Shown here: positions 3,761 to 63,780 of the stretch, in pieces
How positions within the stretch are numbered: the first letter of the stretch is position 1
How the letters are laid out: the number at the start of each line of letters is the position of its first letter
From: Streptomyces sp. P3
GTDB lineage: Bacteria; Actinomycetota; Actinomycetes; Streptomycetales; Streptomycetaceae
Assembly: GCF_003032475.1 (NCBI RefSeq)
Contig: NZ_CP028369.1
Coordinates: 7,130,001 to 7,194,000 of the forward strand
Reading direction: 5' to 3'
DNA: 64,000 nucleotides
Translations under genes and position numbers: made by a program
Notes under the pieces: generated by a model
What the model was told of the DNA's origin: nothing
The model's input: the letters and a program-made list of their open reading frames with translations, nothing else
Database searches by the model: none

Positions 3761-3768
3761 GGCCCGCC

Positions 3769-6846: not shown

Positions 6847-7607
6847 CGCCGAGACTCCGCACCGGCCAACTGGTGGCGCAATTGATCGATGTGTCCGTGC
6901 GCCGCGGCGACAAGCAGGTGCTCGACGGCATCTCCCTGTCCATCAACTGCGGCCGGGTGCTGGCCCTGCTCGGCCAGTCGGGTGCCGGCAAATCCACGCT
7001 GCTGCACGTACTCACGGGCGACCTGGCGCCGAGTCGAGGCGAGATCGACTCCGGCGGGCACGACCTCAAGAAGGGCACCGTCCGCCAGGCGCCGTTGCTG
7101 TTCCCCTGGCTGACGGTGCGTGAGAACGCCGGACTCGGCCAGACGTACGCCGCCAACAAGGACGTCCCCCGGAAACTCGTCGACGAGTTGCTGGAGCTGC
7201 TGGGACTGACCGCCGTGGCGGACAGCTACGCCGAGGAGATCTCCGGCGGCCAGGCCCAACGGGTCGCGCTCGCCAGGGCCTTGGCCATCGCGCCGGACGT
7301 ACTGCTGCTCGACGAGCCGTTCTCCGCGCTCGATCCGCTCACCCGCGCCGAACTGCAGAGCTGGCTGCGCCGGCAGGTGACCGAGCGGGGCTGGACCACG
7401 GTCATGGTCACCCACGACATCGACGAGGCACTCGTGCTCGCCGACGAGATCGTGCTGCTGGGCACCGGCGGGCGTATCGCGGACCGCTGGACCAACCAGC
7501 CCGAGTCGCAAGGCGGCCCGCCGGGCCGCTCCGCCCGCCAGGCGGAGCTGCGCTCCGAGATCCAGGCGGCCTACCACACCGCGGCGAAGGAGCCGGGCCA
7601 TGTCTGA
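6843..7607 (+). CDS. ABC transporter ATP-binding protein (nitrate/sulfonate/taurine type)
   Basis: 254 residues. Walker A is GQSGAGKST, the Q-loop region is QAPLLFPWLTVREN, the signature is ISGGQAQRVALARAL, Walker B is VLLLDEPFSALD, and the switch histidine lies in MVTHDIDEAL. It most resembles SsuB/TauB/NrtD-type ATPases. The start overlaps the previous stop (ATGA), and its 3' end overlaps the binding-protein gene by eight bases. It energises the permease encoded at 8784. Confidence 0.92.
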   Translation: MTPRLRTGQLVAQLIDVSVRRGDKQVLDGISLSINCGRVLALLGQSGAGKSTLLHVLTGDLAPSRGEIDSGGHDLKKGTVRQAPLLFPWLTVRENAGLGQTYAANKDVPRKLVDELLELLGLTAVADSYAEEISGGQAQRVALARALAIAPDVLLLDEPFSALDPLTRAELQSWLRRQVTERGWTTVMVTHDIDEALVLADEIVLLGTGGRIADRWTNQPESQGGPPGRSARQAELRSEIQAAYHTAAKEPGHV

Positions 7608-43128: not shown

Positions 43129-43813
43129 TTCTAATTCTCCAGTTGCTAAGGCGGTGCGGCTTGCGCGCAGCCGATGGGGTTTGAAGCTGCTGAAATCGTG
43201 CCGCGCTGCGCGGCAGGGGCAGCGGATCACGGTGCCGACCCGGAAATTGATCAAGACAGCTAGTGACGTAATTGAGGTCACCCAGCCTTGTGCGCTGAGG
43301 TTGATGCCGATGAGCAGGCCACCCCGCAGCAGGTCAACTTCATTCCTGGGTGCACTCGGGATGCGATAGAAGCCAACCCCCTACGGCGCGGGGGAGGTGG
43401 GGATGCCGCTACGGGCTTCGCGGGACCTCGAGCGCCCACGGCACCTGTTCCATACGAGCTCTGCGGCAGCCCAGAGAGCTGACAGCCGCGCGACACTTTG
43501 AATTGACAGCCGTCTTGGCGATTCCTCTCGACGTAGGTGCAGGTTGTGGCGGTGGACCATCAATGATCCGGGGAAATGCCGGTTTGGCTAACTGGTGATC
43601 CCGCGCTATGTTGCTTCGCTTCGAACGGTCAACGTGCCGGAGCGTGCCTGCGCGTGCGCGTGCGAACCATCACCGTGCAAGCGATTTGGGCCATCAGGCC
43701 CATACCGGCCACGTCGGGCCAACCGCGAGAACGACGGAGCCCTGGGCTTCTTCCCGCTCAGTAGGATCACCGGCAGAGCGGGGCGGGAGGCGCACGGGGT
43801 GGGGAGAAGCGGT
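43129..43813. other. Gene-poor region upstream of the NO VEIN-like gene
   Basis: About 685 bp without a supported gene; the frame of the large downstream gene is open back to 43595 but lacks a ribosome site there. It contains the first copy of a 46-bp repeat (43701-43746) whose second copy lies after the large gene. Confidence 0.45.
43701..43746 (+). repeat. Imperfect direct repeat flanking the NO VEIN-like gene, left copy
   Basis: Shares GCGAGAACGACGGAGCCCT and the flanking CATAC-CCGGC and GGCCA blocks with 49369-49416 in the same orientation, 5.7 kb apart. Confidence 0.7.
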
Positions 43814-46800: not shown

Positions 46801-49147
46801 GGAGTACGAGAAGGCGTGGGCGCAGCTGCTGCCGGCGGAGGGCGGGACGCGCACCGCCGACAGCGGGCAGCCCGCGGCGCCGCGCCGGTTGCTGGTGACC
46901 CGCGCTGGTGCCCTCGCCTCGCTGGACCCGGCGGAGACGGACGAGACGGTCTTCGTCCCGGATCCTGACGGGGCCCAGAACCGAGCCCTTCTGGACCGGG
47001 TCCTCGTGCCCGTGATCCCGGTACGGGACAGGGCACTGGGCGGCCGGGTCCACGCCTTCCTCCAACGGAGGACGACGTTCGATGTCCAGCGGTGCGGCGA
47101 GGCCGCGCACGACATCCAGGCCGACGGATTGCCCGTCCGTGATGCACCGCACGTGCCGTTGACGGAGTACGCGGGATCCTGGCTGCTCACCCTGGTCGCG
47201 GCCCTGGTGGAGTTCGACGAGGAACGAGCGTCCCGTCCGGAGCCCGTGGCTGCGGCCGACGTGGCCGGCCTACTGCATCGCTGCGACGTGACCGTGGCCG
47301 GCGAGGCCGTCCTCTGGATCGCCGGCCACCGCCTCACCGAGCACGGAGCGGACCGAGCCCTGCTGCACCCGCACCCAGACCGGCCCCGTGTGGTCGTCGT
47401 GCACAGCGAGCCGCGTACCGGCTGGCGAGTGCTCCGCACCGCCGCCCCCGCCGTGGCTGCCCTCATCGGCGCGCCCTACCTCGCAGACCTGCTGTGGAAG
47501 GCGCTAACCAAACTGGAGGAACGCGGCCTGAAGACCGACCACGTCCCGGAGGAGGATCTCACGGACGTCCTGGACCTGCGGCCGCACCAACTGCACGCCG
47601 TCCTCGCCGAGCGGGCGTCACAGCGTTCCGGCAGCGCGCGGCTGGTCCCCCTCCTCGCCTGCCTTGATCTCGACCTCGCGGAGCAACTGCGGCAACGCGC
47701 CGAGGACTTCTCCGACCGCGCCGCCCTCCTCACCTGGCTCACCGACCGGATCGGCGCACCGAACGCGGAACAGCTCATGCGGTTGCTGGAGGACGACGAC
47801 CGGGAACGGCAACTGAGCGCCATATCCGTGCCCCTGGCCGACGCCAACCGCGCATGGCGCGCCCTCGGCCTCCCGGAGATCGACAACAGGGACCGGCATG
47901 AACGGCATTTCGCGGCATGGCTTCAGCGGAACCGTCCCGCGCTCGCCGAGCGGATCAGGGACGCCTATAGGGACGTCCACCGGTCCGGACGGTCCCGGGC
48001 CGGGTACGTGAAGCTGCGCGACCTCTCCCTACTCGCGCCGGACCCGGCCTGGCACACGACGCTGTGGCATCTCTCCGACGAACTCCTCCAAGCCCACGCG
48101 GACGCCTGGCTGTTGAAACAGCTTCCCGCACCCTCGTCGACGTCACGCCCCCTGAGGCCACTGGCCGAGGTACGCGAGGCATCCAGCACAGCGGTGCACA
48201 AGCAGGTACCGCGGCTGCGGCAACTGATCGAGGAATGGGAGCGCCTCCATCCCGCAAGTCGCCCCACGGTGCTGCCCCCGGCCCAGGACGTCCTGCGGGA
48301 ACTGGACGGCGACGGCCTGCTGGACTTCGAAGTCTTGTCCGTGAAGGCGTTGATCGCCTGGCTTAGGGCTCGCGGCCACTGGCCCCAAGACATGCCTCTG
48401 TCGGACCGGCGCGCGGACCTCGGACTGGCCGCGACACGTCCCCCGGAGCCCGCGGGGAACACGGGCGGAGCCACGGGCGGAGGCCGAACCGGAGGGTCCG
48501 CACCCGGCCCCCATGTAGTGCTGAACGGCAGGCCCGTGTCGGCCCTGCCCGACGACCTGGCGGCGCTCGCCCGCGAGGTGGCCGCAGACCTCACGCCTGA
48601 GCAGCGGGCCACCTCGGCCACGTCCGCCACGGCGCTCGCGCCCCGTATTCCGCAGCCACGCACCTCGTCGTCGTCCGGTGCAAGGTCGCACAGCGGTTCG
48701 TACCAGGTCCCCGCGAGCGACCAGGACCGGACATTGGCCGTGGGCCTTGCGGGGGAGGCGGCGGTGGGCGCGTGGCTGCAAGAGCAGTTTGGGGTCGAAC
48801 CACAGGACTCATGGAAGTCCGGTCTGCGAGTCCACGGGCTCGCCGGCGCGCAGCCGGGAGACGACCGGCTCGGATACGACTTCCTCATCCACGACGGCGA
48901 CGCGACCTACCTCTACGAGGTCAAGGCATCCACCGGCGACAGTGGCGAGTTCATCCTCGGCGAGTCCGAGGTTCGACGCGCTTCTCGCCTGAAGTCGGAC
49001 GAGACGTACTTCATCGTGTACGTCTCTCACGTCCTCGACCGCGACCGTCGCAACATCACCGTCCTGCCCAACCCATTCGGCGCCCCCAACCTCGCTGGCT
49101 ACGAACTGGTCAGCACCCAGCTGAGGCTCCGATTCAACCATGGCTGA
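43814..49147 (+). CDS. NO VEIN/sacsin-like giant ATPase with C-terminal NOV_C (DUF3883) domain
   Basis: 1777 residues from ATG 43814, with GGGGAG seven bases upstream. N-terminal GHKL (Hsp90-like) ATPase: N-box LLQNAHDAHP (Asn73), NRGKPF around 105-110, and glycine box GIGHKGVGFKSVLHL (131-145). A very long middle region has no motif that I recognise. The last 130 residues form an NOV_C domain (LAGEAAVGAWLQEQFG, then GDDRLGYDFLIHDGDATYLYEVKAS), with the YDF...EVK pattern of a nuclease-like fold. The plant protein NO VEIN shares these two end domains. Many bacterial relatives sit in defence islands, as here, which suggests anti-phage sensing; the mechanism is unknown. Confidence 0.88.
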   Translation: MATGGRRPSAERVRQRRSAAVRRRVHEKALVEVRGCLRDWDDGRDAAREAKAVAETIIAPEYEGRVLIELLQNAHDAHPARATDGRIEIRLDEDEGEHGTLYVANRGKPFGGKNFKDLCSIALSSKRADAGIGHKGVGFKSVLHLCDAPEVYSVAREGSRLLDGFTFRFARLDDYDALAREVAPERAGFADYLKENLLTLKVPVFLEEAPQTVQGFARRGFVTVVRLPLKSADACSAAGAQVRELMDDNAPFELFLDRLERVRLEWRAAGETRRRVYDRQVEVLHHARGLKVQQVTLRRRMRLIVICGKADPDRAREALAASIEKSGMRRDWMAWEKKAEVRVAVPVADPLRDGRLYAFLPMGEQIPAPVRGYVHAPFFAEMNRRSFNEAVPWNGLLLDTVAEVCARAVLAAADGRASIPPGALVDLMCWQPKALARLTSAFQRLDHGIAHVPFIPVIGTTPGARTSLHRALLWEGKIGSTIFTPHAVAATGVMDLLDPHLHPIRLRRLASLARSAGTRLEPPTERLASWAEGLAGAAVRDTFDPGWWADFYYDLSQAFPDGSALTGKRIVITSRSTTAPAGADGVFFDRDTPQGGSLPTLPDGLSDRLHFVHEGIAWSGKGRKRRAQGRKWLRTANLVHDYGADRVLAVVAAALSADSEDNGVRLACLRYACAVSHALETEGRRAPFLGDLHVLTRAGWIDASRAMFGPGWPAEHSSVDDTLTRFLERVRELSPVLTQTEGRLLVRPDELCGDAIPVEAMRRFLERHHVAHGLRPRNETFRTSVRGDALNRPSRFWAPDRQDLLPQWRTSAERWRNRRRVGYISVEYHSRSRAAAMLPGQDDYAAFSEEDRRLYAELIVHGLAFAWADSALEMQFVRHSDPTGTPWPTPLSAFLTHAPWIPQTAAPSATSEGTVFATAGTAWWWHGTQPPPQFLGVVPASLRSRRSAKLVARLGLLGIRSWDDPGTALDRLRHLPDLVQANVHLREGRLAHEIGREYEKAWAQLLPAEGGTRTADSGQPAAPRRLLVTRAGALASLDPAETDETVFVPDPDGAQNRALLDRVLVPVIPVRDRALGGRVHAFLQRRTTFDVQRCGEAAHDIQADGLPVRDAPHVPLTEYAGSWLLTLVAALVEFDEERASRPEPVAAADVAGLLHRCDVTVAGEAVLWIAGHRLTEHGADRALLHPHPDRPRVVVVHSEPRTGWRVLRTAAPAVAALIGAPYLADLLWKALTKLEERGLKTDHVPEEDLTDVLDLRPHQLHAVLAERASQRSGSARLVPLLACLDLDLAEQLRQRAEDFSDRAALLTWLTDRIGAPNAEQLMRLLEDDDRERQLSAISVPLADANRAWRALGLPEIDNRDRHERHFAAWLQRNRPALAERIRDAYRDVHRSGRSRAGYVKLRDLSLLAPDPAWHTTLWHLSDELLQAHADAWLLKQLPAPSSTSRPLRPLAEVREASSTAVHKQVPRLRQLIEEWERLHPASRPTVLPPAQDVLRELDGDGLLDFEVLSVKALIAWLRARGHWPQDMPLSDRRADLGLAATRPPEPAGNTGGATGGGRTGGSAPGPHVVLNGRPVSALPDDLAALAREVAADLTPEQRATSATSATALAPRIPQPRTSSSSGARSHSGSYQVPASDQDRTLAVGLAGEAAVGAWLQEQFGVEPQDSWKSGLRVHGLAGAQPGDDRLGYDFLIHDGDATYLYEVKASTGDSGEFILGESEVRRASRLKSDETYFIVYVSHVLDRDRRNITVLPNPFGAPNLAGYELVSTQLRLRFNHG

Positions 49148-49456: not shown

Positions 49457-50770
49457 TCACGCATCGGGAGCGCCGTCGGCCTGTTGATTCCTGCGTCGTC
49501 GTCGTGGCGTTCGTTTGGGTTTCGGGATGTGACTGGGACGGGAGACGATGATCACATCGGTGATGTCGGGAAGCTTCAGGAGAGCGTTGCGGGTCGTGTC
49601 GTGTTCCTGGACGGAGGAGGACTCGTCGTATATGAAGACGGTCATCTGCCGGTAGGACGAGTTTCCGGCAAGGTAGCCGATGTAGTCATCGTAGATCTCC
49701 TTCTCGAAGGTCTTGAAATCGGCGGCCTTGCGCGCGTATTTGACCTCGATGAGCAGAGCGAGCGAAGGGATGCCGAAATCCGCGCGGTAAGTGCTGTGGC
49801 CGAGCCGCCGGAGGGTTTCTTCCTCGACGAGGTCGTCGAATACGGGCCGGAGCATGAGCCAGAGGATGTTCTGGATCTCGCGTTCCGAGGTGATGGGCCA
49901 CCTGATGGGGTTGTCGAGGTCGTCACCGTCGTAGCGCCATTGCCGCATCGCAGCCTCGAAACGGCTCAGGAGAACGCCTACATGGGTGCGGCTCAGGAGA
50001 GTCTCGTCGATGCTGGCGGTGACTATCTGGGCGGTTGCCTCAAGGAGTAGCGCTGCCCGAGGCGCGGTTGGCTGCCCTGTATCGGTCAGGAGGATGTCGC
50101 TGAGCAGCCGGGACTGCAGTCGCCGCAACTCGTCCTGGTCCGTGAGCGGTACGTCTCTGGCTGAGACGGTCAGCCAGTGAATGCAGGCAGCTTCTACCGG
50201 ATCGCGGATGCTGCGGGCGTCCACCGCAACGGCGGTTGTGGTGCCGAGGATGCGCCGGGCGTGTTCCTGGAAAAGGCTCAGGAGGATGTTGGCAGGGCGC
50301 AGCTTCGGGTCTTGGAGGACCTCGGCCAGCCATGTGCGGGCTCGCGGAGTGTCATCCTGCATTGAGTTGACGGCGAGCGCGAGTCCGATGATTTGTCCGG
50401 GGTCGTTGACGAAGGTGACCCCGTCGTCCTGGAAGGGGTTCTTCCGCATGAGGGCAGGCAGGCCGACGGTCAGGTGTTTCCGGGCGGCGGACTGGGAGGC
50501 GGCTGTTGAGGAGAACCCGGCGAGGCCGTAGCCGAGGACGGCCAGGCCGTGAGAGTGGGCGAAGCGGTGCTCGTTGTCGGCGAGCCATGCCGGCGCCAGG
50601 GGGTTGACGTCCCAGTCGAAGCTGAGGCGTCGTCGGCTCAGGATGTGATAGGCGAGCAGGCCGTCGAGGTTGCCGGGCGCGTTCGCGCGTCGGATGCATT
50701 CCTCCAGGCGGGCGGTCTGCGTGGCCAGCAGGTGTCCGGTGGGTGTGGCTCTTCCGGGTTCTTCGGTCAC
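49457..50770 (-). CDS. PD-(D/E)xK nuclease gene coupled to the Argonaute gene
   Basis: 437 residues from GTG 50770, which overlaps the Argonaute stop by the classical GTGA. The first 300 residues are helical without known motifs (DETLLSRTHVGVLLSRFEAAMRQW). The C-terminal domain has the PD-(D/E)xK signature: Asp331 in YRADFGIPSLALL and Glu342-x-Lys344 in IEVKYARKAADF. The protein ends in a basic tail (PKPKRTPRRRRRN). Long-B Argonautes, which lack slicer activity, are known to be encoded with a separate effector such as a nuclease; the tight coupling fits that scheme. Confidence 0.85.
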   Translation of the reverse strand: MTEEPGRATPTGHLLATQTARLEECIRRANAPGNLDGLLAYHILSRRRLSFDWDVNPLAPAWLADNEHRFAHSHGLAVLGYGLAGFSSTAASQSAARKHLTVGLPALMRKNPFQDDGVTFVNDPGQIIGLALAVNSMQDDTPRARTWLAEVLQDPKLRPANILLSLFQEHARRILGTTTAVAVDARSIRDPVEAACIHWLTVSARDVPLTDQDELRRLQSRLLSDILLTDTGQPTAPRAALLLEATAQIVTASIDETLLSRTHVGVLLSRFEAAMRQWRYDGDDLDNPIRWPITSEREIQNILWLMLRPVFDDLVEEETLRRLGHSTYRADFGIPSLALLIEVKYARKAADFKTFEKEIYDDYIGYLAGNSSYRQMTVFIYDESSSVQEHDTTRNALLKLPDITDVIIVSRPSHIPKPKRTPRRRRRNQQADGAPDA

Positions 50771-53035
50771 AGGAACCACCGGCTGGAGCGCAGCTTGGTG
50801 GCGACCGCGTCGGCGTTCCAGTTCCGCACGTGGCGCAGCTGTCCGAGCAACTCAGCGATCAGGTCTGAGTACAAGATCGTCACAGGAATGCGTGACGGGT
50901 ACATGCTCCGCCAGGACATCGCTGTGAACCGAAACGCCTGCCGTCCCAGGTATTCGATGTCAGTGAAGGTCGAATGGCGGTGGAGCTTGAGCAGAAGCGG
51001 CTTGGGGGCACCGTGCAGAGCGCTCTTGAGATCCATGGGTCCGCTGACAGCCACGAGCAGCTCACGCTGGCCGATGGGTACGGCATGGCCACGCTCCGGC
51101 ACATACTGCCCCTTGGCCCGGCCGCTGGCCCCCCGGTTCACTCCCGCGCTGGCCCGGTCGAACATGACCCAGTCGTGGTCGGTGCTCACGTGCACGAACG
51201 CGAACTCGACCCTGGCGTACGTCCGGGTAAGGCGCTCGACCAGCTCCTTGACCGCAGCGGCCTCAATGTCTTTGAGCGGTTTGAACACATGGAAGATAAG
51301 GCGCAGTTCGTCGCCCTTCTGCCAGGCGTTGCGGATCTTGATCGCGTCGATGCATTCTGTCAGGGAGCGCAGGAGTTCCCGGGGGTAGTCGTCGTAGTCG
51401 GCCTCCCGGGACGTGTTGGAGAGAAGGTAGTTGCCGTCTGCGCTGAACACGGTGGTGATGCCCACTACTCGTTCCGGCGCGGTGAGCCGGCTCTCTTTGA
51501 CGTGCGCGCTTCCGATGCCGATGACCAATTCGTGGGTGAGTGAGCGTGGAGCGGCGATCACGAAGGGGATTCCGCCCAGCTTGGCGTAACAGGCCAGGGC
51601 AATGCTGTTGAGCGGGTAGGCGAGCTTACTCAGTCGGACCGTTTCGATTCTCACGTCCTGGACGGGGACGCCCTGTCCCATGAAGGCTGATTTCGCCACA
51701 AGGTACGGGCTGTTGTCGCCCGTGAGATGAGCCTGATCCTCGCTGGTGATGACGATGGCCAGGTCGATGTCCCCGCTGAGCAGTGCCCTCCGGCACGCCT
51801 CGCGGTAAGCGTTGGCATCGGTCGTGGCCCCGTCGAAGGGGTGCAGGGAGACGTCACAGCCGGAAAGGTGATACTTGCGGATGAACCCGAGGCCGAACGT
51901 CCTTTCTCCTTGGATCCCGTGGAGGAACTTGAAAAGGAAGTTCTCGACGACACCTTTGTGCGCGCGGGGTGTGATGACGGCGATCCTCGGTTTCTTCTTC
52001 GCGAAGAATTCCACGTCGAACGGGCCGTATTCGTCCAGGCCGCGGTCGGGTGACCGGCTCGTCTTATCTCCGGCCTGGTCGAACTGGAACGTAAGTCCCG
52101 CTCACTTTCCTGCCGCTGCTCGACCCGACTGGCTGCTCGATGACCACGGACAGGTCACCGGCCACCTGTAGTTGGCCGAGTCGCTGCAAGCGGCCGGCAA
52201 TGCTGACCGCACCCTCGTAGCGGCCGAAGGCCCCGAGCAAATCGAACGTCTTCTGGTCCAGTTCCTTGAGAATCCTGGCGCTGTCGCCTCCGGCCAGGGC
52301 ACGGACCACGTCGTCGAAGGTCTCCCGTCGGCTCTCCAGCCACGCGTTGCTGGCAGAGATTCGGGTCACCCCGGGGGCATCGCGCAGTAGCAGGTCGGTG
52401 CCGTCGACGTGGTCGACAGCACCGACCGCCTGCCGGGCGGCGTGGTGATCCATGCGCGGGTCGGGTGTGCTCGCCGCGTCCTCGCTCAGCACGTAGCGCC
52501 CGCGCACGTCGAGGCCCTGGTGGATCAACTCGTCCACCGTCATGTCGATCTCGTAGCGGCTCTTCACCCCGACGATCACACCAGGGTGGTTCGAGGGACC
52601 GATGGTCCTGCTGTCCAGCCGGTATTCCGGATAGACGTGGAGCCTTCCGAGGGCCTCCTGACGCCGGCCGCGGACCGAAGGCTCAAGCAGATCCCTGCCC
52701 GCCAGGCGAGAGACGAACACCGGTGGGCTAAGCCGACGCACCTTGTACCCCCAGCCCAGCACCGACCGGAGCAACGCCTCCTGGACGAGACGCATGGTGA
52801 GGGACCGGTGATCGCGTGTCCGGAACGTTGTAGGCGTGCCGTAGACGTCGCTGTCGGCCTGCACGGGAATGCAGGCGATGCTTGTTCGTGTCTTGGCGAC
52901 CACGTGGCTGTCGCCAAGCTTGGCTCGGAGGTCAGCGAGTTGCTCGGGTGACTCGAATTCGATCAGCCCACCCTTGAACTCGTCCGCCGAAAAGCGGACC
53001 GGCAGGAAGTTAAAAGCCAGCACCGGCGGATTCAT
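50767..53035 (-). pseudogene. Long-B-type prokaryotic Argonaute, one frameshift
   Basis: Two frames (52064-53035 and 50767-52014) form one 755-residue protein if one base near 52090 is removed; the joined segment then reads SGTYFQFDQAGDKTSRSPDRGLDEYGPFDVEFF. The N-terminal part holds the N and reduced PAZ regions (PEYRLDSRTIGPS; VKSRYEIDMTVDELIHQGLDVRGRYVL). The MID region contains RIAVITPRAHKGVVENF. The PIWI domain ends FTAMSWRSMYPSRIPVTILYSDLIAELL. The strand expected to hold the first catalytic Asp reads ELVIGIGSAHV, so slicing is unlikely. It would be a guide-dependent sensor for the nuclease encoded next. Confidence 0.85.
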
Positions 53036-53531
53036 TCTGCCCCCTTGCGTCCAAGCCCCATTCCCTCCCCGGCATCGAGGCGGTTACACGTCACGGCACC
53101 TCGTCACCAAGGTGCCCTTCACGCTCAGAGCATTGTGGCACCGGGGTATGACAACGGGCGGGGAAGAGCCGCTTGACCGGATCAATCACGTGATGCCGGT
53201 CAGCCGTAATCGCCACAACCGGAGCTCTCCTTGAGTTCTCCGTGTGCCCGCGAGCCGCGCCCCTGCCCTTGGCGGACCGCCACCTCATCCTGCGAGCGAT
53301 ACGGAACGATCCGTGTTGGGTGAACCCTCCCCGAACCTGCGCTCGGCGGCATACGCTGGCCAGCCAGTGCCGCCGTGATCACCGGGAGCCCCGGGAGGCG
53401 CGGCGGGAGGAAGGACAGCAGGACCGGGGCAGGCCGCCCGCCTGTACGCAAGCACCGGGCACTGTACCGACGCCGTCTGGGAGTGCGTGCTGTGGCCGGG
53501 CAGGGCCGCGTCGCCCGGCAGGGGGAGGGCC
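53036..53531. other. Divergent promoter region between Argonaute and Dicer-like genes
   Basis: About 495 bp with no supported gene. It must carry promoters for the minus-strand Argonaute-nuclease pair and the plus-strand Dicer-like gene. I see no strong palindrome or repeat. Confidence 0.45.
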
Positions 53532-56462
53532 ATGAACCGCTGGGTCGGCATCGTGTCGCTGCGCGAGACCGCGCCGCCGACACCCGTGCACCGCATCGCG
53601 CTCGCCATCGACGCCGCGCGGAACCGGACGTCGTACCAACTGGCCGGCCGGACGGTGCCGTATGCGCGGATGCGGTCGGCGCTGCGCACGCTCGGTCAGG
53701 AGCACGCGCGCCACCATGAGTGGGGGCGGTACGAGTACTGCGTCGACCTGGCCGGTGACTTCTTCGACGGCGGCCACCCCCCGACCGGCCTGCCTTCCTG
53801 GCTCACCAACAAACTCCAGAATCTCCTGGACGGCAGGTCCGGCACACCGCCGACGGGCGGGCGGAGGGCGCAGGCGGCCCCTCGGCGGGCTGTCTCGCGT
53901 CCTGTCCACCAGGGCCCGGCGTCCACCCGCCGGGGCCGGAACACACCCCCCGAAGCCGCACGCCCAGCCCGGCTGGCGCGGTCGGCCCCGCCCGCGACCG
54001 GACAGCTTCCGTCGCCCGAGCCGGTCCGGCCCTACTCCCGCGCCGAACGGCGGCTCGACGTCCACGACGTCACGTACCCGGCGCTTTGCGAGCCACCCGT
54101 GTCGCTGGTGGGCACGTACGGGCGAGAGGTCCGCGAGGTCGTGGGGAAGGCCGTGCGCGGATGGGACGCCAGCCCCGAGGTCACCGCCTGGCTCGGCCTG
54201 GCCGTCGAACACCGCAGTCACCTCTACGAGTGCCACCACGCCGCCCAGGTCACACCGCACGTGCTCGGCCTGCTCGACCGGCTCGGCGCCACCGCGCTCG
54301 ATGTGATCCTGCTCGACGCTTACGCGCGATGGGCGACCCCTTGGAAGGCGGGCGAACAGTCGAGCGAACACGCCCGGCGACGCGCCGCCGCCGACCTCGC
54401 GCTCGGCGCGTGGGTTACCAAGCAGGGGCTGGTGCGCATGGGCGCGGGGGAGGCGCAACAGCCCGCCAGGTCCGTCTTCGAAGGAGTGGCCCGGCAGATC
54501 CTCGGCGTGCTCAGCCTCTGTGGCGAGCACGAGATCGCCCGGAGGCTGGTCGTCTCCGTGTGGCCCGACCTCGACCGCCCGTCCGCGGAGACGGGAGCCG
54601 ATCCTGTCACTCTGGCGCATACGGCCTTCCACAAGGAAGGACTGACCTACGACTACGACGAGGAGGGCCCGGACCACCGCAAGGTCTTCCGCGCCGTCGT
54701 CCGCACCGGAACCGGCCGCACGGCGGAAGGCACCGGCCAGTCCAAGAAGGCGGCACGGGCGGCGGCGGCACGAGCCCTGCTCGACGCATACCCGCAGGTG
54801 GCCGCAGCGGCGGGCGCCGAGCGGAAGGCGGCACCCGCGACCCTGCCGGCCGCGTCGCCGCTGCCGTACGCGCAGCCGGGCAATCGGCACCGGGACGCGG
54901 TGAGCGACCTAGCGGCCATGTTCGAGCTCGGCCATCACGCGGACGGGCTCCTCGCCCAGGCCCTCACCCATGTCTCCTGGGTCCACGAGAACCAGGCAGC
55001 GGCGACCGCTGCCCGCCAGCGCGACAACCACCTGCTCGCCCACCACGGCTCGCACGTGGTGAACCACCTCGCCGCCCACGTTCGCGTCCGCCAGGCCCTC
55101 GCGCACAGCCTCACCCCCGACGAGGACGAGGCGCGCATCCTCACCGCCTCTGACGACGACACCGCGCGGCTCGGTGCGACCCTCCAGCTCGCGGAAGGGC
55201 TGCTGACGAGCCGTGGTGAGAGCGGACAGGGCCGCACAGCGGTGTCGGACGCCGCCCAGGCGGTCGTCGCCGCGGCCTGGCGCGTCCACGGGCCTCGGCT
55301 GCTTGGGCGCCGGCCCGCCGTCCTTGACGACTGGCTCTCCGGCCTGGAGCACCAGCACGACCCGGTGACCGTCCTCGCCGCCATGGCCACCATGTACGGC
55401 ATCGAACACGAGTACACGTACGACGTCTCAGGGCCGGACCACCTGAAGAGCTTCACCGCCACGATCGGGCTGCGGGATGCTCGGGGCCGGGTCCACCGGT
55501 GGACCGAACCTCTGCCCGGAACCCCCGGAAAGCCGGAGGCGAAGAAGGCGACCGCCGAGGCCGTCCTCGACATCCTCGCCACCCCCGTCAACGGCGTCGT
55601 CGACGATCTCCCCGCCCCGGAACGGGGCCTGCTCGTCTTCCTCCTGCGCGCCCAGCTCGATGGCCTAGGCCGGCCGACGGAACGGCAACGCGCACGCATG
55701 CTCGCCCGCGGCGACCTAGGCACCGACCTCCTCACCACCGGCGACACCGAGGCGTTTCTTGCCTGGGCAGAACGCGTCTGCCCCCTGCTCGGGCCGGACG
55801 ACACGGCCGTACCGGATGCGTTGCGCGAGCTGTACCGGAAGGTCCTCGACGACACGCGCATCGGGCCCGGCTCGCTCCTGCGCCGCATGGCCGCCAGCCC
55901 CGGACCCGACGCCGCGAGCGTGGTCCGGCGAAATGCGACGGACGCCGTACGGCGAGCGCTGAGCAGCGGGCCGCAGGCCGCCTCGGTCCGAGACATCGTG
56001 CAGGACTGGTGGCGCGACCAGGCCCCGGCCACCGGCGTCACGGTCCGCGACGACATGCGTCAGGACGTCTTCCGCCCGCTTCCCGTCCACCTCGGCGCGC
56101 TGGACGAGACCCTGACGTGGTGCGGCGAAGCCGCCGAGGCAGCCGGCACCCGCATCGACGTCGAGCTGACGGTTCAGGACGGCACGCTGCACGTGTGGCT
56201 CGGCCTCGACAAGGTGGACATTCGAGCGGCCTGCGACGATTTCGCCCGCCTGCTGTCCCACACCCTTCCGTTTACCGACTGCCTGGTCGGTGACGACCAT
56301 GTACTGCTGCGCCTGCACGGCGATCTTGAGACGGCTCCCCTCCATCCCCTGGCCACAGCGGGCATGGATGCCTACGTCTCCGTGCCGCTTGATCGGCGGA
56401 GGCTCACCAGGGAAGTCATCGACGGGCCAATAGGAGCACAGGACGTGCAGCCGTACTCGTGA
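53532..56462 (+). CDS. Dicer-like protein: two degenerate RNase III-like domains, each followed by a dsRNA-binding domain
   Basis: 976 residues from ATG 53532 (GGGGGAGG upstream). An N-terminal region and a Pro/Arg-rich linker (115-185) come first. Domain 1 (about 190-345) has an RNase III-like layout, AWLGLAVEHRSHLYE, GLLDRLGATALDV (246-258) and ARSVFEGVARQILG (312-325). A dsRBD follows (357-420, ending GQSKKAARAAAARALLDAY). Domain 2 (about 453-605) has LLAQALTHVSWVHEN, DNHLLAHHGSHVVN (498-511) and TAVSDAAQAVV (569-579). A second dsRBD (610-682) ends KPEAKKATAEAVLDIL. Then 290 mostly helical residues. The RNase III acids are largely lost (LGD reads LGA and HGS; the late Glu reads Arg and Gln), so it is probably a dsRNA binder, not a nuclease. 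Confidence 0.75.
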   Translation: MNRWVGIVSLRETAPPTPVHRIALAIDAARNRTSYQLAGRTVPYARMRSALRTLGQEHARHHEWGRYEYCVDLAGDFFDGGHPPTGLPSWLTNKLQNLLDGRSGTPPTGGRRAQAAPRRAVSRPVHQGPASTRRGRNTPPEAARPARLARSAPPATGQLPSPEPVRPYSRAERRLDVHDVTYPALCEPPVSLVGTYGREVREVVGKAVRGWDASPEVTAWLGLAVEHRSHLYECHHAAQVTPHVLGLLDRLGATALDVILLDAYARWATPWKAGEQSSEHARRRAAADLALGAWVTKQGLVRMGAGEAQQPARSVFEGVARQILGVLSLCGEHEIARRLVVSVWPDLDRPSAETGADPVTLAHTAFHKEGLTYDYDEEGPDHRKVFRAVVRTGTGRTAEGTGQSKKAARAAAARALLDAYPQVAAAAGAERKAAPATLPAASPLPYAQPGNRHRDAVSDLAAMFELGHHADGLLAQALTHVSWVHENQAAATAARQRDNHLLAHHGSHVVNHLAAHVRVRQALAHSLTPDEDEARILTASDDDTARLGATLQLAEGLLTSRGESGQGRTAVSDAAQAVVAAAWRVHGPRLLGRRPAVLDDWLSGLEHQHDPVTVLAAMATMYGIEHEYTYDVSGPDHLKSFTATIGLRDARGRVHRWTEPLPGTPGKPEAKKATAEAVLDILATPVNGVVDDLPAPERGLLVFLLRAQLDGLGRPTERQRARMLARGDLGTDLLTTGDTEAFLAWAERVCPLLGPDDTAVPDALRELYRKVLDDTRIGPGSLLRRMAASPGPDAASVVRRNATDAVRRALSSGPQAASVRDIVQDWWRDQAPATGVTVRDDMRQDVFRPLPVHLGALDETLTWCGEAAEAAGTRIDVELTVQDGTLHVWLGLDKVDIRAACDDFARLLSHTLPFTDCLVGDDHVLLRLHGDLETAPLHPLATAGMDAYVSVPLDRRRLTREVIDGPIGAQDVQPYS

Positions 56463-56499: not shown

Positions 56500-58023
56500 T
56501 CAGAGGACGGTCCTTGGCCCCGGTTCCAGTCGGCCGCTGGCCCAGGGGTAGTACGCCCATCCCTGGACGAGGATCGGGTTGAGGGAGTTCTCGTGCCCGT
56601 TCAGGCATTCGTTGAGCGCCCAGGTGGAGCGCTCGGGGTCGGCCGCCCGTTCCAGGAGCAGAGAGCTGGGTGTGGTGTCGGTGAGGGTCACCAGGCGTTC
56701 GACTTCGTGGGCTGCGACGACCGTGGTCGGGATGTCGGCGGTGGGTAGGTCGAGGTGAGGCAGGTTGGCGTTGGCGACGGGGAACGGTTCAAGGGTGACG
56801 ATCAGTGCCTGTCGTGGACGGTCGGTCGGAATTTCGGCGAATGCCGGATGGCGCTGGTCGATCTGGGCCGAGGTGGCGTTGACCTGGCGGAAGGCGCGGG
56901 CGAGTTTGCTGTCGGTCTCGGCGACGCCAAGTTCCAGGCCGAGGCGGGCGTTCTCGGTCGGCATCATGGACTTGACCTCCACGAGCAGCACCAGGTCGTC
57001 GAAGACGACGAACCAGTCGACGCTTTGCAGTTCGTTCCGCTTGACCCGGTACGTGACCTCCGAGATGACATCGGCGTCCGGTATCAGGCGGAGCTGGCGG
57101 CCGACGTACTCCTCGAAGAGGTAGCCGGTCTCCTGCAGGAAGTCGGGTCCGAAGTGCTCGCGTCCTGTGTGGTATATACCGGCCGGCGTCGCTTTGCGCC
57201 AGACCAGCTGAGGCGAGGGGCACAGCAGGCCGGGTCCGAAGCCGGTGACCGCGGGCCGGCCGAGCAGCGGGTTGTAGGTGAAGCGGCGCAGCTGGGCCGC
57301 TTTGCCGCCAGCCACCTTCGCCAGGTTCTGCGTGGTTCGCTTCTCGGCTGCTTTGAGGGAGGCCACGTCGGTGGCGAAGTGGCGTTCGACGACGGGCAGC
57401 ACCGTGTCCCGGCTCACGGCGCGGTTGAACTTCTCCCCATCGGGGCCGTCGTAGAACGCGGGATCGAAACGCCCGGCGTTCAACAGCGCACATCCCCACA
57501 GCAGCTGAGCGGTGCCGACGTAGTCGGGCAGCGGGCAGCCGAAGACTTCGGTGTCCCAGCCGGGGACTATGCAGCGGGGTTGCCGGCGTGCGGGGAACGG
57601 TGTGTGCAGGTACAGCGCGGCGGTACGGGCGAGAGTGGCGAACTCCGGGGTCTGGAAGGCCATCTGCTCGCCGCCCAGACGCATCATGAAGTCCCTCAGG
57701 CGGATCGGATCCTCGTCGGTACCGTGCAAGGTCGGTTCCTTCAAGCTGGAATACGCCGCGAGGATCTCCAGCAGGTCACGCTCGGTGGCTTCGGCCCTCT
57801 GGTGCTCGGTGCCGTATGCCAGGCAAACGCGGGCCGCATCAGCCAGAGCCCAGGGCGTGTACTTCAGAAAGGGGCTTTCCAGCCAGGGCTGTGGCCGCTC
57901 GGGCGTGCTGTAGCGAGCCGCCGCTGCAGCGATCAGGGGAAGCAGCGAGCTGGGACGATGACGCCGGATGCGCTGACGGTATTCGTCCTCCGTCACCAGC
58001 CGGTCATACAGGTACGCAGCCAT
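56500..58023 (-). CDS. Uncharacterised protein with C-terminal PD-(D/E)xK-like domain
   Basis: 507 residues. The N-terminal two-thirds are helical and unrecognised (LTEDEYRQRIRRHRP-like start, then PWLESPFLKYTPWALADAARVCLAYG). A domain from about residue 295 has FEEYVGRQLRLIPDADVISEVTYRVKR followed by SVDWFVVFDDLVLLVEVKSMM, giving Asp336 and Glu349-x-Lys351. This pattern is that of a restriction-like nuclease. It converges on the Dicer-like gene and could be part of the same defence locus. Confidence 0.72.
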   Translation of the reverse strand: MAAYLYDRLVTEDEYRQRIRRHRPSSLLPLIAAAAARYSTPERPQPWLESPFLKYTPWALADAARVCLAYGTEHQRAEATERDLLEILAAYSSLKEPTLHGTDEDPIRLRDFMMRLGGEQMAFQTPEFATLARTAALYLHTPFPARRQPRCIVPGWDTEVFGCPLPDYVGTAQLLWGCALLNAGRFDPAFYDGPDGEKFNRAVSRDTVLPVVERHFATDVASLKAAEKRTTQNLAKVAGGKAAQLRRFTYNPLLGRPAVTGFGPGLLCPSPQLVWRKATPAGIYHTGREHFGPDFLQETGYLFEEYVGRQLRLIPDADVISEVTYRVKRNELQSVDWFVVFDDLVLLVEVKSMMPTENARLGLELGVAETDSKLARAFRQVNATSAQIDQRHPAFAEIPTDRPRQALIVTLEPFPVANANLPHLDLPTADIPTTVVAAHEVERLVTLTDTTPSSLLLERAADPERSTWALNECLNGHENSLNPILVQGWAYYPWASGRLEPGPRTVL

Positions 58024-58580: not shown

Positions 58581-58662
58581 GGCACGGAGCGCTTTCGGCG
58601 CGCGCCGGTGGATCTGCTTAATCCTGTGACAGATGGGGGTGGTTCGGGCAGCATCGGGCGTG

Positions 58663-60021
58663 ATGGTTGCTCTTCGCTCCCGCCGTCTGGAGGGGCTCTT
58701 CGGAGCCCGGCTCGACGCGGTCTCGCACGCTCAGATCGCCACCCTGAGGACGAACGCGGTCTCTGAGTCCTACGACCTGGAGTTCAAGGGGGAGCTCTAT
58801 GGCGGTAACGACAAGGCCAAGCGGGACTTGGCCGGTGACGTGGCGGCCCTGGCCAACACCGCCGGTGGAGTCCTGCTGCTGGGAGTTGCCGAAGACGACC
58901 AGGCCCGGGCGACAGAGCTCCCCGGGGTCGCGCTCAGCGACGCTGAGGTGTTGCGGATCCGAAACATCGTGGCCGACCAGGTCCACCCCCTGCCCGTCTT
59001 CGACGTTGAGCAGATCGAGGACCCGGACAAACCTGGTCATGGGATTCTGATGATCGCTGTGCCCCGCAGCCCCTCCGCTCCGCACGGAGTCCTGGTCAAC
59101 CAGGGCCTGCGCTACCCGCGCCGCAATGGCGCCAGCATCATCTACCTGACGGAGGCCGAAGTGGCCGCCGCCTACCAGGACCGCTTCGCTCGTCGCCAGT
59201 CCCGCCACGACGACCTGCTCCGCTACGAGCGGGACCTGATCGGCCGCCTGGACGTGAGCGACCAGACGTACGTCGTTGTCACCCTGGTCCCGGACCTCAG
59301 TGGGGACTTCATCCTCGACACCAAGGCCCTGCGAGCCTTCCAGCAGGAAACCCGCGACAAGGACCTGCTCGTCATCCCGCGTGGTGCGTACGTCCGGCAC
59401 GTCACGGTAGGCAGCCGCCGTCTGATGGCGCACGGTGGCTCCGAGCCCGCGACGGCCAAGTGGATCGCGTGCGAGTTCCACCAAAGCGGCGCCGGCACCT
59501 TCGCCGCCGTCGCCGCCAACCGCACCGACCTTGCCCGACCCGGCCAGGTGGATGAGAACACCACGGTCAGTCGGATCGAAGATGAGGACCTGGTCCTCGA
59601 CATCTGGTCCGGACTCCGGCTCCTGGCTCGCCACGCACGGGACCGAGCTGCCGCAGGAGGCACTGCCACAGTCCGCGTGACCATCACCCCTGTCAACGCC
59701 GACCTTCCGGCCGAACTGCGTCACCCACGCGGACACGCCAATCTCGGCGGCAGTCTTGGCACTCACCAGGTGACCGAGCCACCCCAAGCGACTTCCGTCT
59801 TCGACATCGACGACCTAGCCGAAGACGGACCGGGCCTGATCGCGGCCACCTCCGTCCTCGCAGCTGGCCTGATCCAGCACTTCGGCTACCCGGAGACCCT
59901 CCAGATGACCACTGACGGCGTCATCCGGACCAAATACTGGAGTTCACAGCGCTACGGCCCTGGCGTGCAGCAGTGGGCCACTCAAGCCAACGTCGACATG
60001 ACCGACGACACCGTTGACTGA
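58663..60021 (+). CDS. Schlafen/AlbA_2-domain protein
   Basis: 452 residues from ATG 58663 (the GTG at 58660 is an alternative). The N-terminal 150 residues form an AlbA_2/Schlafen domain: SESYDLEFKGELYGG, DLAGDVAALANTAGGVLLLGV, GILMIAVPRSPSAPHGV. Many such proteins bind nucleic acids or act as RNases in defence. The C-terminal 300 residues have no motif that I recognise. The start of the frame lies just after an IS5 fragment, so the promoter may have been brought in by that insertion. Confidence 0.78.
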   Translation: MVALRSRRLEGLFGARLDAVSHAQIATLRTNAVSESYDLEFKGELYGGNDKAKRDLAGDVAALANTAGGVLLLGVAEDDQARATELPGVALSDAEVLRIRNIVADQVHPLPVFDVEQIEDPDKPGHGILMIAVPRSPSAPHGVLVNQGLRYPRRNGASIIYLTEAEVAAAYQDRFARRQSRHDDLLRYERDLIGRLDVSDQTYVVVTLVPDLSGDFILDTKALRAFQQETRDKDLLVIPRGAYVRHVTVGSRRLMAHGGSEPATAKWIACEFHQSGAGTFAAVAANRTDLARPGQVDENTTVSRIEDEDLVLDIWSGLRLLARHARDRAAAGGTATVRVTITPVNADLPAELRHPRGHANLGGSLGTHQVTEPPQATSVFDIDDLAEDGPGLIAATSVLAAGLIQHFGYPETLQMTTDGVIRTKYWSSQRYGPGVQQWATQANVDMTDDTVD

Positions 60022-60912: not shown

Positions 60913-63780
60913 TCACCGACTCGGTGGGGAACCTTCCTCTCCGGAGGACTCGTCGGATTCGCCGTCGTGTGGCAGGACGTATTGTGCGGTCTTTGCCGCC
61001 ATGTGGAGCGGGAGTGGAAGCCCTAGGGTCACGTTGTAGTCAGGCGCGCGGCGCAACTGGTGGGTGATGGCGGCCCAAGGTCCCGGCACGCTGGATTTCT
61101 CTGGCACGGCGACAACCGCGATCTCCAGTGCGGCCGGGTTCCATGCGTTGGTGCCCGTGTCGATGACGGGCTCCGGCTCTTTGTCCTCTTCATCCTCCGA
61201 GCGCTTCTTCTTCAGCGGGATCCGGGTGGCAATCTTCGAGGCGGTCTTCACCGCGTGCTTGGCTGTGTGGGGCTTTTCGCCGGTGCTGTAGTACACGCGG
61301 TGGTCGTCGTCGGCGCCCGGGTGGGCCCACAGGCCGCTCGCGAAGCCGTGATCGGCGGTGTCGTCGTCCGGGGCGAACCACTGGGGGGTTTCGTCGGATG
61401 CGTGGTCGCGTACCCGCACATGGCACAGATTCTCGCCGTACAGGGTGATGTGCTGGGCCGGGTTGGGGCCGAACTGGAGGGCGTCGGGGCGCAGTCGGCC
61501 GTTGGTCAGCCATGGCCAGTGCAGACGGGAGTTCTGCGCGTGCGAGAGCAGCAGGACGTGGCGGTCGCGCAGGCTGTAGAGCATCGCCCGGATGAACTGG
61601 GCCGTCTCGGCCCGTTGATCGTCCAGATCGGGAACCCAGGTCGTGGTGCGTTGTCTCTTTCCATCCTCGGCTTCCGGCCTCGGCGCGTCCTCCTCCCCGG
61701 TCGCTCCTGTGACTTCACCGTCCTCGCCGTCTTGGTCTTCCTCGTCGAACTCTTCATACTCGCCCGGGATCTCGGCGTGGCGGGCGAGAGAGAGCAGGAG
61801 TTCCGGGTACGGAATCCAGTCCCCACGATCGGGGTCCCACCCCATGACCGAGCTGTCGGCTGCGCTCATTTTGACGGCGACAGGGGAGGTGCGGCGTTTG
61901 CGGGTGGGCCCGTCGGCGCGGCGCTTGACCATCCACAGTGCGACGTACTCCAGGTCCTTGGGCAGTTCGTCCACACTGTGTTCCGGTGCCGTGCAGACGC
62001 CCAGTTGCCGAAGGACGTCGTTCCACGCCTGCAGGGCTCGGTGGGCGATGCTCTTCTTGGTGGCGGTGTTCCAGTGCGAGCTCGGCAAGGTGATGAACTT
62101 TGTCAACCGTCCGGCATCGGCATACCCGAGGCGTACGGCGAACTTGGGGTCCACGAAGTCGGGCCGGAAGGACTTCGGGTGGCCGATCTCGACCACGACG
62201 GCCTGGACGTCTGGTCGTTCGTCGCGCTCGCACAGTTCGGCGATCTCTCGCCGGCGGGCACTGATCGCTGTGGTGAGGGTCTTTCGTTTCGGCTGGCCGT
62301 CGGGGAAGTCGAGCCGGGCGGCGACGACACCGGCGTCTTCCAGGTACAGGCGCACCGTCAGCTCTGGTGTCGTCCAGGTACGTACGGCCTTGTCCGTTCC
62401 GCCCGGGCCGTCCAGGCCCAACAAGACTGCCAGTTGCTCGATCAGGGCGCCACGCGTGCGGTCGTTCTGCCAGCGCGCTTCGACGATCAGGGGCCGGCCG
62501 TCGAGTACCCGTGCCAGGGCGGCGCGTCGTTCGTTGTGGCCTTTCCGCTCCAACTCGACCTTCTGGAGGGCGCGTTCCTCCCTCGTCTTGGCTGTCGGAG
62601 TCTTGGGGAGATTGCGTGGGAGGACTGGAAATCGGCTGCGGGTGAAGTCGCCGAGCTGGGTGAGGTGAGGCAGCAACGCCCCGGCTGCCCAGTCGGTAAG
62701 GGGGGAACGGTCGCGCGGCATGAGACCGGTGCCGACGCCATGGCCGCCCATCGACGTGGCATGCACGACGCTGATCTGGATGCCTTCCTTCCCGGGGATC
62801 CAGGCGTCGGGGTTCTCCTGCACTGCCGCTGCGTTCGGGAGTTCGCGAGAGAACCGGAGGCTGCTGAGCATGCCTTGGGGGCCTCCGCGCGTCCACTGGG
62901 GCAGGGACGTGTTGCGGTCGATGGCCAGTCGGCACACCGAGAGCCGTCCGGTTCCTGTCGACTGCCCTAGCCAGGGCGTTTGCGCGAGCAGGTACGCCGA
63001 CACGGCCCGCCGATACGGTACGGGCACGGGCCCACCGGTGCGCCAGCGGCGAACTCCCGTGCGGACATGGAGGCGGAAGTCGCCGGCGAAGGGCACGGTC
63101 TGCACGGTGAGCGTGATGACGAACGAGAACTTCCACCACATTCCATCGTCGTCCTGGTGGTCACGCGGCGGCCAGGAGACGAGCTCGGCGCCGCGTTCGG
63201 CGGCGGCGATTTTGAACGTCATCTCGACGCCCTCGAAGCGGTAGGGATCCAGTTTCGCGATGCTCTGTGCGAGGGCGTCGGGCAGGAGCTGGTGGATCAG
63301 CGGGTCCGGCTCGAAGGTGCCGCCGGGCGAGGTTGTGCCCGCGAAGAGGTCGACGGTGTGTGGCTGCCAGGTCAGCCCAGCCACGTCCAGTGAGGCGCTG
63401 AGCTTGGTGGCCCGTTCGGTGATGTCCGGGTACTTCTTACGGGTGCGCGGGGAGTGCAGGTCACGGATCCAGGCGTGGATGAGCTGCCGCATGACAGGGA
63501 GCGGAAGCGGCGTTTCTGCGTACAGCCATGGGGTGTTGTCGTCGAGTGTGGCGCCGCGCGCGACACACAGCAGGTCGGGTGCCACGGCACGGATGACCTC
63601 GTTGAGCCTGCGGATAGGTACCTGGTTGATCCTTTTCGGTTCGCGTTTGCCGATCCGGTAGAAGTCCAGTACCTCGGCCCGCCACGAGGCGGGGAAGGCG
63701 AGTCCGTGGGTCTGGCGGATGAAGTCCGTGCCGCGGGCGGGCTCGAACGCGGTGAATCTGACGGTGGGGTAGGAGGGCAC
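60913..63780 (-). CDS. pPIWI-RE module protein (prokaryotic PIWI with R/E signature)
   Basis: 955 residues from GTG 63780 (AAGGGA upstream). It matches my recollection of the pPIWI-RE family (DUF3962/DUF3893-type). The long N-terminal half includes GVEMTFKIAAAERGAELVSWPP and TVPFAGDFRLHVRTGVRRW. The RNase H-like PIWI half has AVVVEIGHPKSFRPDFVDPKFAVRLGYADAGRLTKFI. The conserved tail has WPWLTNGRL, YGENLCHVRVRDHASDETPQWF and GFASGLWAHPGADDDHRVYYSTGEKP. An acidic linker (EEFDEEDQDGEDG) lies between. In known loci it is encoded with a helicase and a restriction-like nuclease and is proposed to act in DNA defence. Confidence 0.8.
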   Translation of the reverse strand: MPSYPTVRFTAFEPARGTDFIRQTHGLAFPASWRAEVLDFYRIGKREPKRINQVPIRRLNEVIRAVAPDLLCVARGATLDDNTPWLYAETPLPLPVMRQLIHAWIRDLHSPRTRKKYPDITERATKLSASLDVAGLTWQPHTVDLFAGTTSPGGTFEPDPLIHQLLPDALAQSIAKLDPYRFEGVEMTFKIAAAERGAELVSWPPRDHQDDDGMWWKFSFVITLTVQTVPFAGDFRLHVRTGVRRWRTGGPVPVPYRRAVSAYLLAQTPWLGQSTGTGRLSVCRLAIDRNTSLPQWTRGGPQGMLSSLRFSRELPNAAAVQENPDAWIPGKEGIQISVVHATSMGGHGVGTGLMPRDRSPLTDWAAGALLPHLTQLGDFTRSRFPVLPRNLPKTPTAKTREERALQKVELERKGHNERRAALARVLDGRPLIVEARWQNDRTRGALIEQLAVLLGLDGPGGTDKAVRTWTTPELTVRLYLEDAGVVAARLDFPDGQPKRKTLTTAISARRREIAELCERDERPDVQAVVVEIGHPKSFRPDFVDPKFAVRLGYADAGRLTKFITLPSSHWNTATKKSIAHRALQAWNDVLRQLGVCTAPEHSVDELPKDLEYVALWMVKRRADGPTRKRRTSPVAVKMSAADSSVMGWDPDRGDWIPYPELLLSLARHAEIPGEYEEFDEEDQDGEDGEVTGATGEEDAPRPEAEDGKRQRTTTWVPDLDDQRAETAQFIRAMLYSLRDRHVLLLSHAQNSRLHWPWLTNGRLRPDALQFGPNPAQHITLYGENLCHVRVRDHASDETPQWFAPDDDTADHGFASGLWAHPGADDDHRVYYSTGEKPHTAKHAVKTASKIATRIPLKKKRSEDEEDKEPEPVIDTGTNAWNPAALEIAVVAVPEKSSVPGPWAAITHQLRRAPDYNVTLGLPLPLHMAAKTAQYVLPHDGESDESSGEEGSPPSR

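Follow-up and report, generated by a model that had tools for sequence, protein, structure and literature searches.

A Streptomyces protein with a tandem, catalytically degenerate Dicer-like core as a candidate receptor for double-stranded RNA

The window analyzed here, a stretch of 64,000 nucleotides from Streptomyces sp. P3 (contig NZ_CP028369.1, positions 7,130,001 to 7,194,000 of the forward strand), contains on its plus strand, at 53532..56462, a complete frame of 976 codons without internal stop. Its product, the pseudo-Dicer protein DRP (P0001), carries two RNase III-like domains (D1 and D2), each followed by a double-stranded RNA-binding domain (dsRBD). This Dicer-like tandem layout had been proposed in a preliminary description of the sequence and was confirmed by Pfam, NCBIfam, family profiles and a predicted structural model. 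Both RNase III-like domains have lost acids of the catalytic site. We lean slightly towards reading DRP as a cytosolic receptor for double-stranded RNA (dsRNA), which would grip its ligand with the dead Dicer-like core and signal through the modules attached to it.

Domain organization of DRP

The core of DRP consists of D1 (residues 189-345, 54096..54566), assigned from profiles, model and alignment, dsRBD1 (residues 357-419, 54600..54788), assigned from Pfam, D2 (residues 451-605, 54882..55346), assigned from Pfam and profiles, and a divergent dsRBD2 (residues 610-682, 55359..55577), assigned from the secondary structure of the model and from profile matches of relatives. It is preceded by an N-terminal module with the conserved start MNxWVGxVxLR (residues 1-101, 53532..53834) and an arginine- and proline-rich linker (residues 102-185, 53835..54086) delimited by low model confidence and by the ratio of nonsynonymous to synonymous substitution rates (dN/dS). 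In the model it is followed by a helical region (residues 690-811, 55599..55964) and a GHKL/HATPase-like fold without recognizable ATP-binding motifs (residues 812-940, 55965..56351), the latter assigned on structure only. All these features lie on the plus strand. The preliminary description had the RNase III/dsRBD core right and overlooked the N-terminal module and the C-terminal fold.

Homologues were compared in two alignments, A1 with 22 and A2 with 49 of 76 sequences (P0001 and 75 matches). Fragments, the transposase fusion P0076 and some near-duplicates or other full-length proteins were omitted from both by choice, and two proteins with disrupted ends (P0067 and P0074) are included in A1 and not in A2.

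Profile searches match both domain types, dsRBD1 above and the RNase III parts below the respective cut-offs. The Pfam model dsrm matches dsRBD1 at residues 372-417 (6.9e-10, 39.8 bits against a gathering cut-off of 23) and is matched by all 49 homologues scanned singly. The GPDH and SKKAA RNA-contact motifs are retained, and residues G379, P380, H382, K405 and K406 are invariant in 49 of 49 sequences. D1 and dsRBD1 together match the NCBIfam model TIGR02191 RNaseIII (2.2e-13, 50.2 bits, under its equivalog cut-off of 166.25 bits). With the single sequence, the RNase III of Mycobacterium tuberculosis (2a11) aligns to residues 220-417 (E 1.4e-5), and with a profile of 22 homologues it matches the first half of DRP at 8.8e-13. 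For D2, Ribonucleas_3_3 matches at residues 472-583 with 1.8e-4, below its cut-off in the window protein, and 47 of 49 relatives match this model at E<=0.1 (best 6.2e-10). The RNase III of Thermotoga maritima (1o0w) was found with the same profile of 22 homologues at E 8.2e-5, its best stretch being 443-576. In the window protein dsRBD2 has no Pfam match of its own; it shows the alpha-beta-beta-beta-alpha pattern in the predicted model, and its family profile matches 11 of 11 divergent relatives at E<=6e-5, the best of 57 control open reading frames (ORFs) reaching 6.4. These controls stem from five arbitrarily chosen regions of the genome that carries DRP, without matching for chromosome arm.

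Each of the four single-domain profiles (RNase III-1, dsRBD1, RNase III-2 and dsRBD2) recovers all 11 divergent relatives tested. The weakest match is that of P0088, which is shortened at its N-terminus, with RNase III-1 (E 0.023). The four profiles never rate a control ORF better than 0.27, or one of 200 shuffled RNase III sequences better than 0.092. For the ordinary RNase III of the genome the values are 3.8e-12 (dsRBD1), 0.0018 (RNase III-2), 0.0055 (RNase III-1) and 0.23 (dsRBD2), the last of them not being useful. A structural search with the predicted model agrees with the profiles, as residues 189-686 superpose on Drosha and Dicer. A profile-profile comparison of D1 and D2 was too weak to establish that the two arose by duplication (3.3% probability).

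Loss of the catalytic sites

RNase III depends on four catalytic acids, E40, D44, D107 and E110, and the corresponding positions of DRP were read by alignment to the genome's own RNase III. In D1, D44 is replaced by A, R, G or H and E110 is gone in 49 of 49 sequences; leftover acids are a D at the position of E40 and an E at that of D107 (45/49 each). The register of D1 at D107/E110 is uncertain by one residue, and the alternative register puts R321 at E110 in the window protein. In D2 the residue at E40 is A, that at D44 is S or A, and that at E110 is Q (Q576 in the window protein), each in 49 of 49 sequences; D107 is retained in 42. The divergent relatives agree, as D44 and E110 are absent from D1 in 10 of 10 (P0088, with its short domain, was omitted from this count) and E40, D44 and E110 from D2 in 11 of 11. 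As read from these alignments, single acids remain in D1 and D2, but neither has a complete site.

The loss of metal-binding acids claimed earlier is thereby upheld. Since neither domain keeps a complete site in any of the 49 sequences, binding or sensing of dsRNA instead of cutting, as also suggested before, would be the natural reading of the sequence. The fixed Q at E110 of D2 is notable because it is the same change as in the E110Q mutant of Aquifex aeolicus RNase III, whose structure with dsRNA is 1yz9 (by its title). The host genome has a separate, ordinary RNase III, so DRP is not a replacement for it.

N-terminal module, linker and C-terminal fold

Residues 1-101 are among the best-conserved parts of DRP. 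The start MNxWVGxVxLR is found in 61 of 64 proteins of at least 900 amino acids, and a profile of the module detects it in two Rhodococcus relatives (E 7.3e-9 and 7.2e-5). Judged by this conservation, the N-terminal module is the most conserved extra part in the window's branch and is common to the Rhodococcus branch. In the record L016 only 8517-10076 is annotated; the open frame (7248-10076) begins 1.27 kb earlier and includes the module. No Pfam family matches residues 1-101, and Foldseek gave no match at E<=0.001 (best E 1.8) with a model of this part at a predicted local distance difference test score (pLDDT) of 71. A role of the module as a shared adaptor domain was rejected, as the next best match within the genome (E 0.92) is not convincing. 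Residues 1-11 (53532-53564) are near-invariant and yet predicted at very low confidence, which suggests a binding peptide for a partner. The linker has a pLDDT of about 31-48 over most of residues 101-180 and the highest dN/dS of the DRP regions in five of seven comparisons.

In the predicted model residues 812-940 take up a GHKL ATPase fold. The N, G1 and G2 ATP-binding boxes of GHKL ATPases are not found there (N and G2 by visual inspection of the alignment), the G1-box pattern D[ND]GPG and the H-box pattern each occur in 0 of 78 P0001-type proteins or fragments, and none of the 49 members matches an HATPase Pfam family at E<=0.1. The family EACC1 matches the C-terminal region below its cut-off (E 0.01).

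A kinase branch with an associated response regulator

A related branch has the same dead core followed by an intact-looking histidine kinase. Two of its members are plasmid-encoded, in S. europaeiscabiei (L015) and Streptomyces sp. NBC_00841 (L017), and a third belongs to a Streptomyces genome (L036). HATPase_c matches the first two proteins at 2.7e-16 and 1.4e-15, respectively, and the sporulation kinase KinB aligns to the L015 protein over 795-1010 (2.4e-11). The H, N, G1 and G2 boxes are present in all three kinases. Including seven further proteins, all four boxes were found in 7 of 10 proteins examined, of which P0084 is 97% identical to P0079: P0084, P0085, P0088 and P0089 have four boxes, P0086 has only the H box, and P0087 and P0090 have none, the boxes of these three having apparently been lost by disruption of the C-terminus.

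At all three loci a response-regulator gene overlaps the kinase gene by 4 bases (GTGA, ATGA and ATGA), the start of the third regulator (L036) being our choice within a longer frame. At L036 the core (P0001 match 2.5e-37) lies directly upstream of the regulator. The two regulators scanned match Response_reg at 3.3e-18 and 6e-18. An H box, ATP-binding boxes and a cognate receiver protein, the components of a two-component system, occur together in the kinase branch only.

The C-terminal part of the regulators contains RNDIFHG, RNGLAHG or RNALAHG, that is RNxxxHG in 3 of 3. Anantharaman et al. (PMC3710099) characterize the active site of HEPN RNases by the motif Rx4-6H, in which N, D or H usually follows the R directly. 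RNxxxHG, with its N, fits this rule and may therefore be read as a HEPN motif. On this motif, the output region of the regulators is probably a HEPN RNase.

On the plasmid of L015, 1.7 kb before the pseudo-Dicer kinase operon, the frame 1874-5905 encodes a TPR-CHAT protein (CHAT 1.9e-43), possibly a further effector. The ORFs listed around L017 do not include such a protein, and none was seen in L036.

Distribution, selection and mobility of the family

At least 75 homologues were found among the matches listed, and all those with a named source organism are from Streptomyces or Kitasatospora. A scan of genome contigs added Wenjunlia, and a plasmid search the Rhodococcus relatives and two unusual Streptomyces proteins. 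Within the reach of these searches the family is narrow. In the source records its members are labeled 'putative dsRNA-binding protein', 'dsRNA-specific ribonuclease', 'Ribonuclease 3', 'hypothetical protein' or similarly.

Among 13 loci, the gene is open over its length in seven, interrupted as assembled in four (L005, L009, L010 and L011) and reduced to a C-terminal remnant in two (L012 and L013). Against seven open homologues, leaving out the four interrupted frames, dN/dS is 0.24, 0.25, 0.26, 0.26, 0.28, 0.30 and 0.42. Where it is open, the gene is kept by purifying selection.

At the loci L002-L007 and L011, which have other flanks, the nucleotide similarity to the window starts at 53299-53325 and ends no more than about 50 bp from the stop codon; L008 and L010, which are more distant, are similar over parts of the gene only. 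The transferred unit is a single DRP gene with about 230 bp upstream, which we presume to be its promoter and 5' leader (53302..53531, plus strand). A conserved RNA element in this leader was considered and rejected, as covariation lends no support to the predicted fold (covariation term 0.07). The neighbors differ from locus to locus, except for the pair of window and L001, flanks common to L004-L006 (partly L009) and few families shared by two loci.

Genomic neighborhood

Neighbors were defined as ORFs of at least 120 amino acids within 6.5 kb, called by a simple GC-bias script, so that some may be wrong; L012 and L013 were excluded from this family survey. The 74 neighbor ORFs of 11 loci match 129 PADLOC models at E<=1e-20, the 57 control ORFs match one. 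The models are redundant, hence 129 models do not mean 129 systems, and the best 25 of the 129 were listed. When 20 of the 74 neighbors, mainly chosen by size, were scanned singly, 13 matched at 1e-15, two of them (one in L004 and one in L011) via generic protein-kinase models. At L006, L008 and L010 few proteins were scanned singly and no match was found, and L003 had none among the singly scanned set. Pfam gave 63 families for the neighbors, and many of the best 25 listed are ordinary metabolic or regulatory ones.

In the window, a TmtA-like protein of 1850 amino acids with a sacsin-type N-terminal ATPase and NOV_C is encoded at 43595-49147 on the plus strand (PADLOC E 0). On the other side of DRP follow a convergent GapS1-family-like gene (56500-58023, minus strand; NF047931 5.2e-13, below cut-off), a Schlafen AlbA_2-domain protein (58633-60021, plus strand; 8.6e-12) and a pPIWI-RE protein (60913-63780, minus strand; PprPIWI 1.1e-221). 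The GapS1-like protein has a counterpart of 94% identity in L001, and such a gene accompanies DRP only in these two loci; L009 holds a GapS1 remnant of 28 residues.

At the other loci the defense genes are of different kinds: Gabija GajA/GajB (L005), Wadjet JetC (L007), TmtA (L009), a DrmD-like (DISARM-like) helicase (L011), pPIWI-RE with its DinG helicase (L002), and a short Argonaute with nuclease partner together with DruE-like and GajB-like helicases (L004). Genes annotated DUF1819, DUF1788 and brxC form a run at 2.5 kb from one Rhodococcus relative. On a plasmid of Rhodococcus opacus (L018, 5601-17041) a treble-clef zinc-finger protein precedes the DRP relative and BREX genes follow it.

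The window also contains a class II Argonaute. Compared with L001, where it is a single frame of 773 codons, the gene (50767-53035, minus strand) has a 14-base deletion and is split by the resulting frameshift into the ORFs 52064-53035 and 50767-52014; its Helical-REase partner gene (49457-50779) appears whole. The preliminary description had placed DRP divergently from an Argonaute operon and 4.5 kb from a second PIWI protein. These positions are correct, with 496 bases between the Argonaute ORF (ending at 53035) and the start of DRP and 4,450 bases between DRP and the pPIWI-RE ORF (60913); the frameshift had escaped that reading of the operon.

Proposed function and alternative explanations

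The kinase branch together with the defense-rich neighbors leads us to propose that the core senses dsRNA in anti-phage immunity and that its outputs are exchangeable. We infer for the family dsRNA binding, signaling, HEPN catalysis and an anti-phage role, which could be connected as follows. The two dead RNase III domains would form an internal pseudo-dimer that grips an RNA duplex as in Dicer and Drosha, and the paired dsRBDs would add affinity. Binding would not be followed by cutting, because the acids for the catalytic metals are gone; it would change the state of the N-terminal residues 1-101 and the C-terminal GHKL-like fold, and these would pass the signal on. In the kinase branch, phage-derived dsRNA would activate the kinase and, through it, the response regulator, leading to RNA cleavage by the HEPN domain and growth arrest. 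For the window's branch, the signal might leave via the conserved N-terminal module or via a partner whose gene lies elsewhere. A wider proposal, put forward tentatively, is that Actinobacteria possess an innate dsRNA-sensing immunity on a dead Dicer core, the outputs being either the kinase with its HEPN regulator or the N-terminal module and dead GHKL fold with a partner.

Several observations weigh against the receptor model. The predicted model has a template modeling score (pTM) of 0.42, its top superposition row, Drosha 5b16, has a root-mean-square deviation of 10.6 A, and the pseudo-dimer is based on this superposition. The GHKL-like assignment is structural, and a profile of the region found no family match by sequence. 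As the kinase branch is only 26% identical to P0001, its output need not hold for DRP. HEPN_RiboL-PSP from Pfam matches one of the three regulators weakly and below cut-off (E 0.0039), and a profile search of solved structures gave no HEPN protein. The neighbors also include non-defense genes such as LysR regulators, dehydrogenases, a carboxyltransferase and an MFS transporter, and no DRP relative was found in phage records and viral contigs. Finally, the gene is interrupted in 4 of 11 near-full-length loci, besides two loci with remnants; such frequent decay fits the turnover of defense genes, and it fits dispensability too.

An alternative, which we regard as unlikely, is that DRP is a structural or regulatory dsRNA-binding protein without a role in defense, for instance a modulator of the host RNase III or of translation in the manner of mL44. 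mL44 likewise combines a dead RNase III with a dsRBD, a chain of the human mitoribosome (3j7y_c) is among the Foldseek matches of DRP (E 0.025), and the Pfam model of mL44 matches one of 49 members (E 0.063). However, a patchy spread as a single gene, mostly different neighbors, frequent decay and nearby defense genes are unlike a housekeeping function, and the relatives in the kinase branch are signaling proteins.

Somewhat less likely still, DRP might act directly, either by coating or sequestering phage dsRNA or through an unrecognized activity of its N-terminal module. No partner gene is conserved beside DRP across loci, and the module is well conserved without a matched fold; both points speak for this view. 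On the other side, residues 1-101 match no Pfam family, and the kinase branch is an example of the core connected to a signaling output.

The proximity to Argonaute raises the question of a functional tie, with DRP as a Dicer-like loader or guide provider. In favor of it, the window and L001 both have a class II pAgo gene set next to DRP in divergent orientation, and at least 4 of the 12 loci, namely the window, L001, L002 and L004, have a PIWI-type gene (pAgo or pPIWI-RE) nearby. However, among 13 loci searched with the window's genes the divergent arrangement recurs in L001 alone, the PIWI genes of L002 and L004 are different ones located downstream of DRP, and other loci hold Gabija, Wadjet, Tmt or DISARM-like genes, so that conserved operonic or adjacent linkage to pAgo is not found and the tie is unsupported. 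Moreover, DRP appears independent of the window Argonaute because its gene travels alone and the Argonaute frame is split while DRP is open. With both RNase III sites dead as well, a partnership with Argonaute is very improbable and was discarded.

Comparison with known systems

Literature searches of open-licence full texts found no description of the DRP family. The nearest precedent among these texts is the cyanobacterial HEPN-RNase III-dsRBD fusion (PMC3710099), in which dsRNA recognition by RNase III and dsRBD is likewise joined to a HEPN RNase. There the HEPN domain is part of the same chain and RNase III is treated as active, whereas the core of DRP is tandem and dead and the HEPN-like domain resides in a separate regulator, in the kinase branch only.

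Each half of DRP has the RNase III-dsRBD order of bacterial RNase III, the nearest solved relative by sequence being the M. tuberculosis enzyme. DRP differs in that two copies are fused and the catalytic acids are lost. A catalytically inactive RNase III-like protein is also known from the mitochondrial ribosome, namely mL44, which shares with DRP an RNase III-like fold used for RNA binding. Unlike this subunit of the ribosome, DRP has a pair of these domains, and its mobile gene is located in regions with defense genes.

Tandem RNase III domains in one chain are known as a signature of the eukaryotic Dicer and Drosha, and some small Dicers have no helicase. DRP resembles them in having two RNase III domains in one chain together with dsRBD. 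It differs in being bacterial, in its two dead sites, in a dsRBD after each RNase III domain, in its GHKL-like C-terminus and in an N-terminal module without known relatives. PAZ and helicase domains have no Pfam match in P0001, nor are they among the 12 families matched by any of the 49 members. On its sequence DRP is not a Dicer, having lost catalysis and having neither PAZ nor helicase by Pfam. If our reading is correct, the Dicer architecture exists in bacteria too, as a receptor kept by selection after the loss of its active sites.

In the OAS-RNase L and PKR pathways a dsRNA sensor activates a HEPN-type RNase or a kinase, and the logic proposed for the kinase branch would be alike. According to PMC3710099, the KEN domain of RNase L is a HEPN domain. 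The sensor fold is different, the bacterial output would be a two-component relay, and there is no evidence of common descent of the pathways. If it holds, the kinase branch would provide a bacterial dsRNA sensor with a readable output of kinase, regulator and HEPN RNase, and the detection of phage dsRNA as a danger signal in bacteria, parallel to these eukaryotic pathways, would become directly testable.

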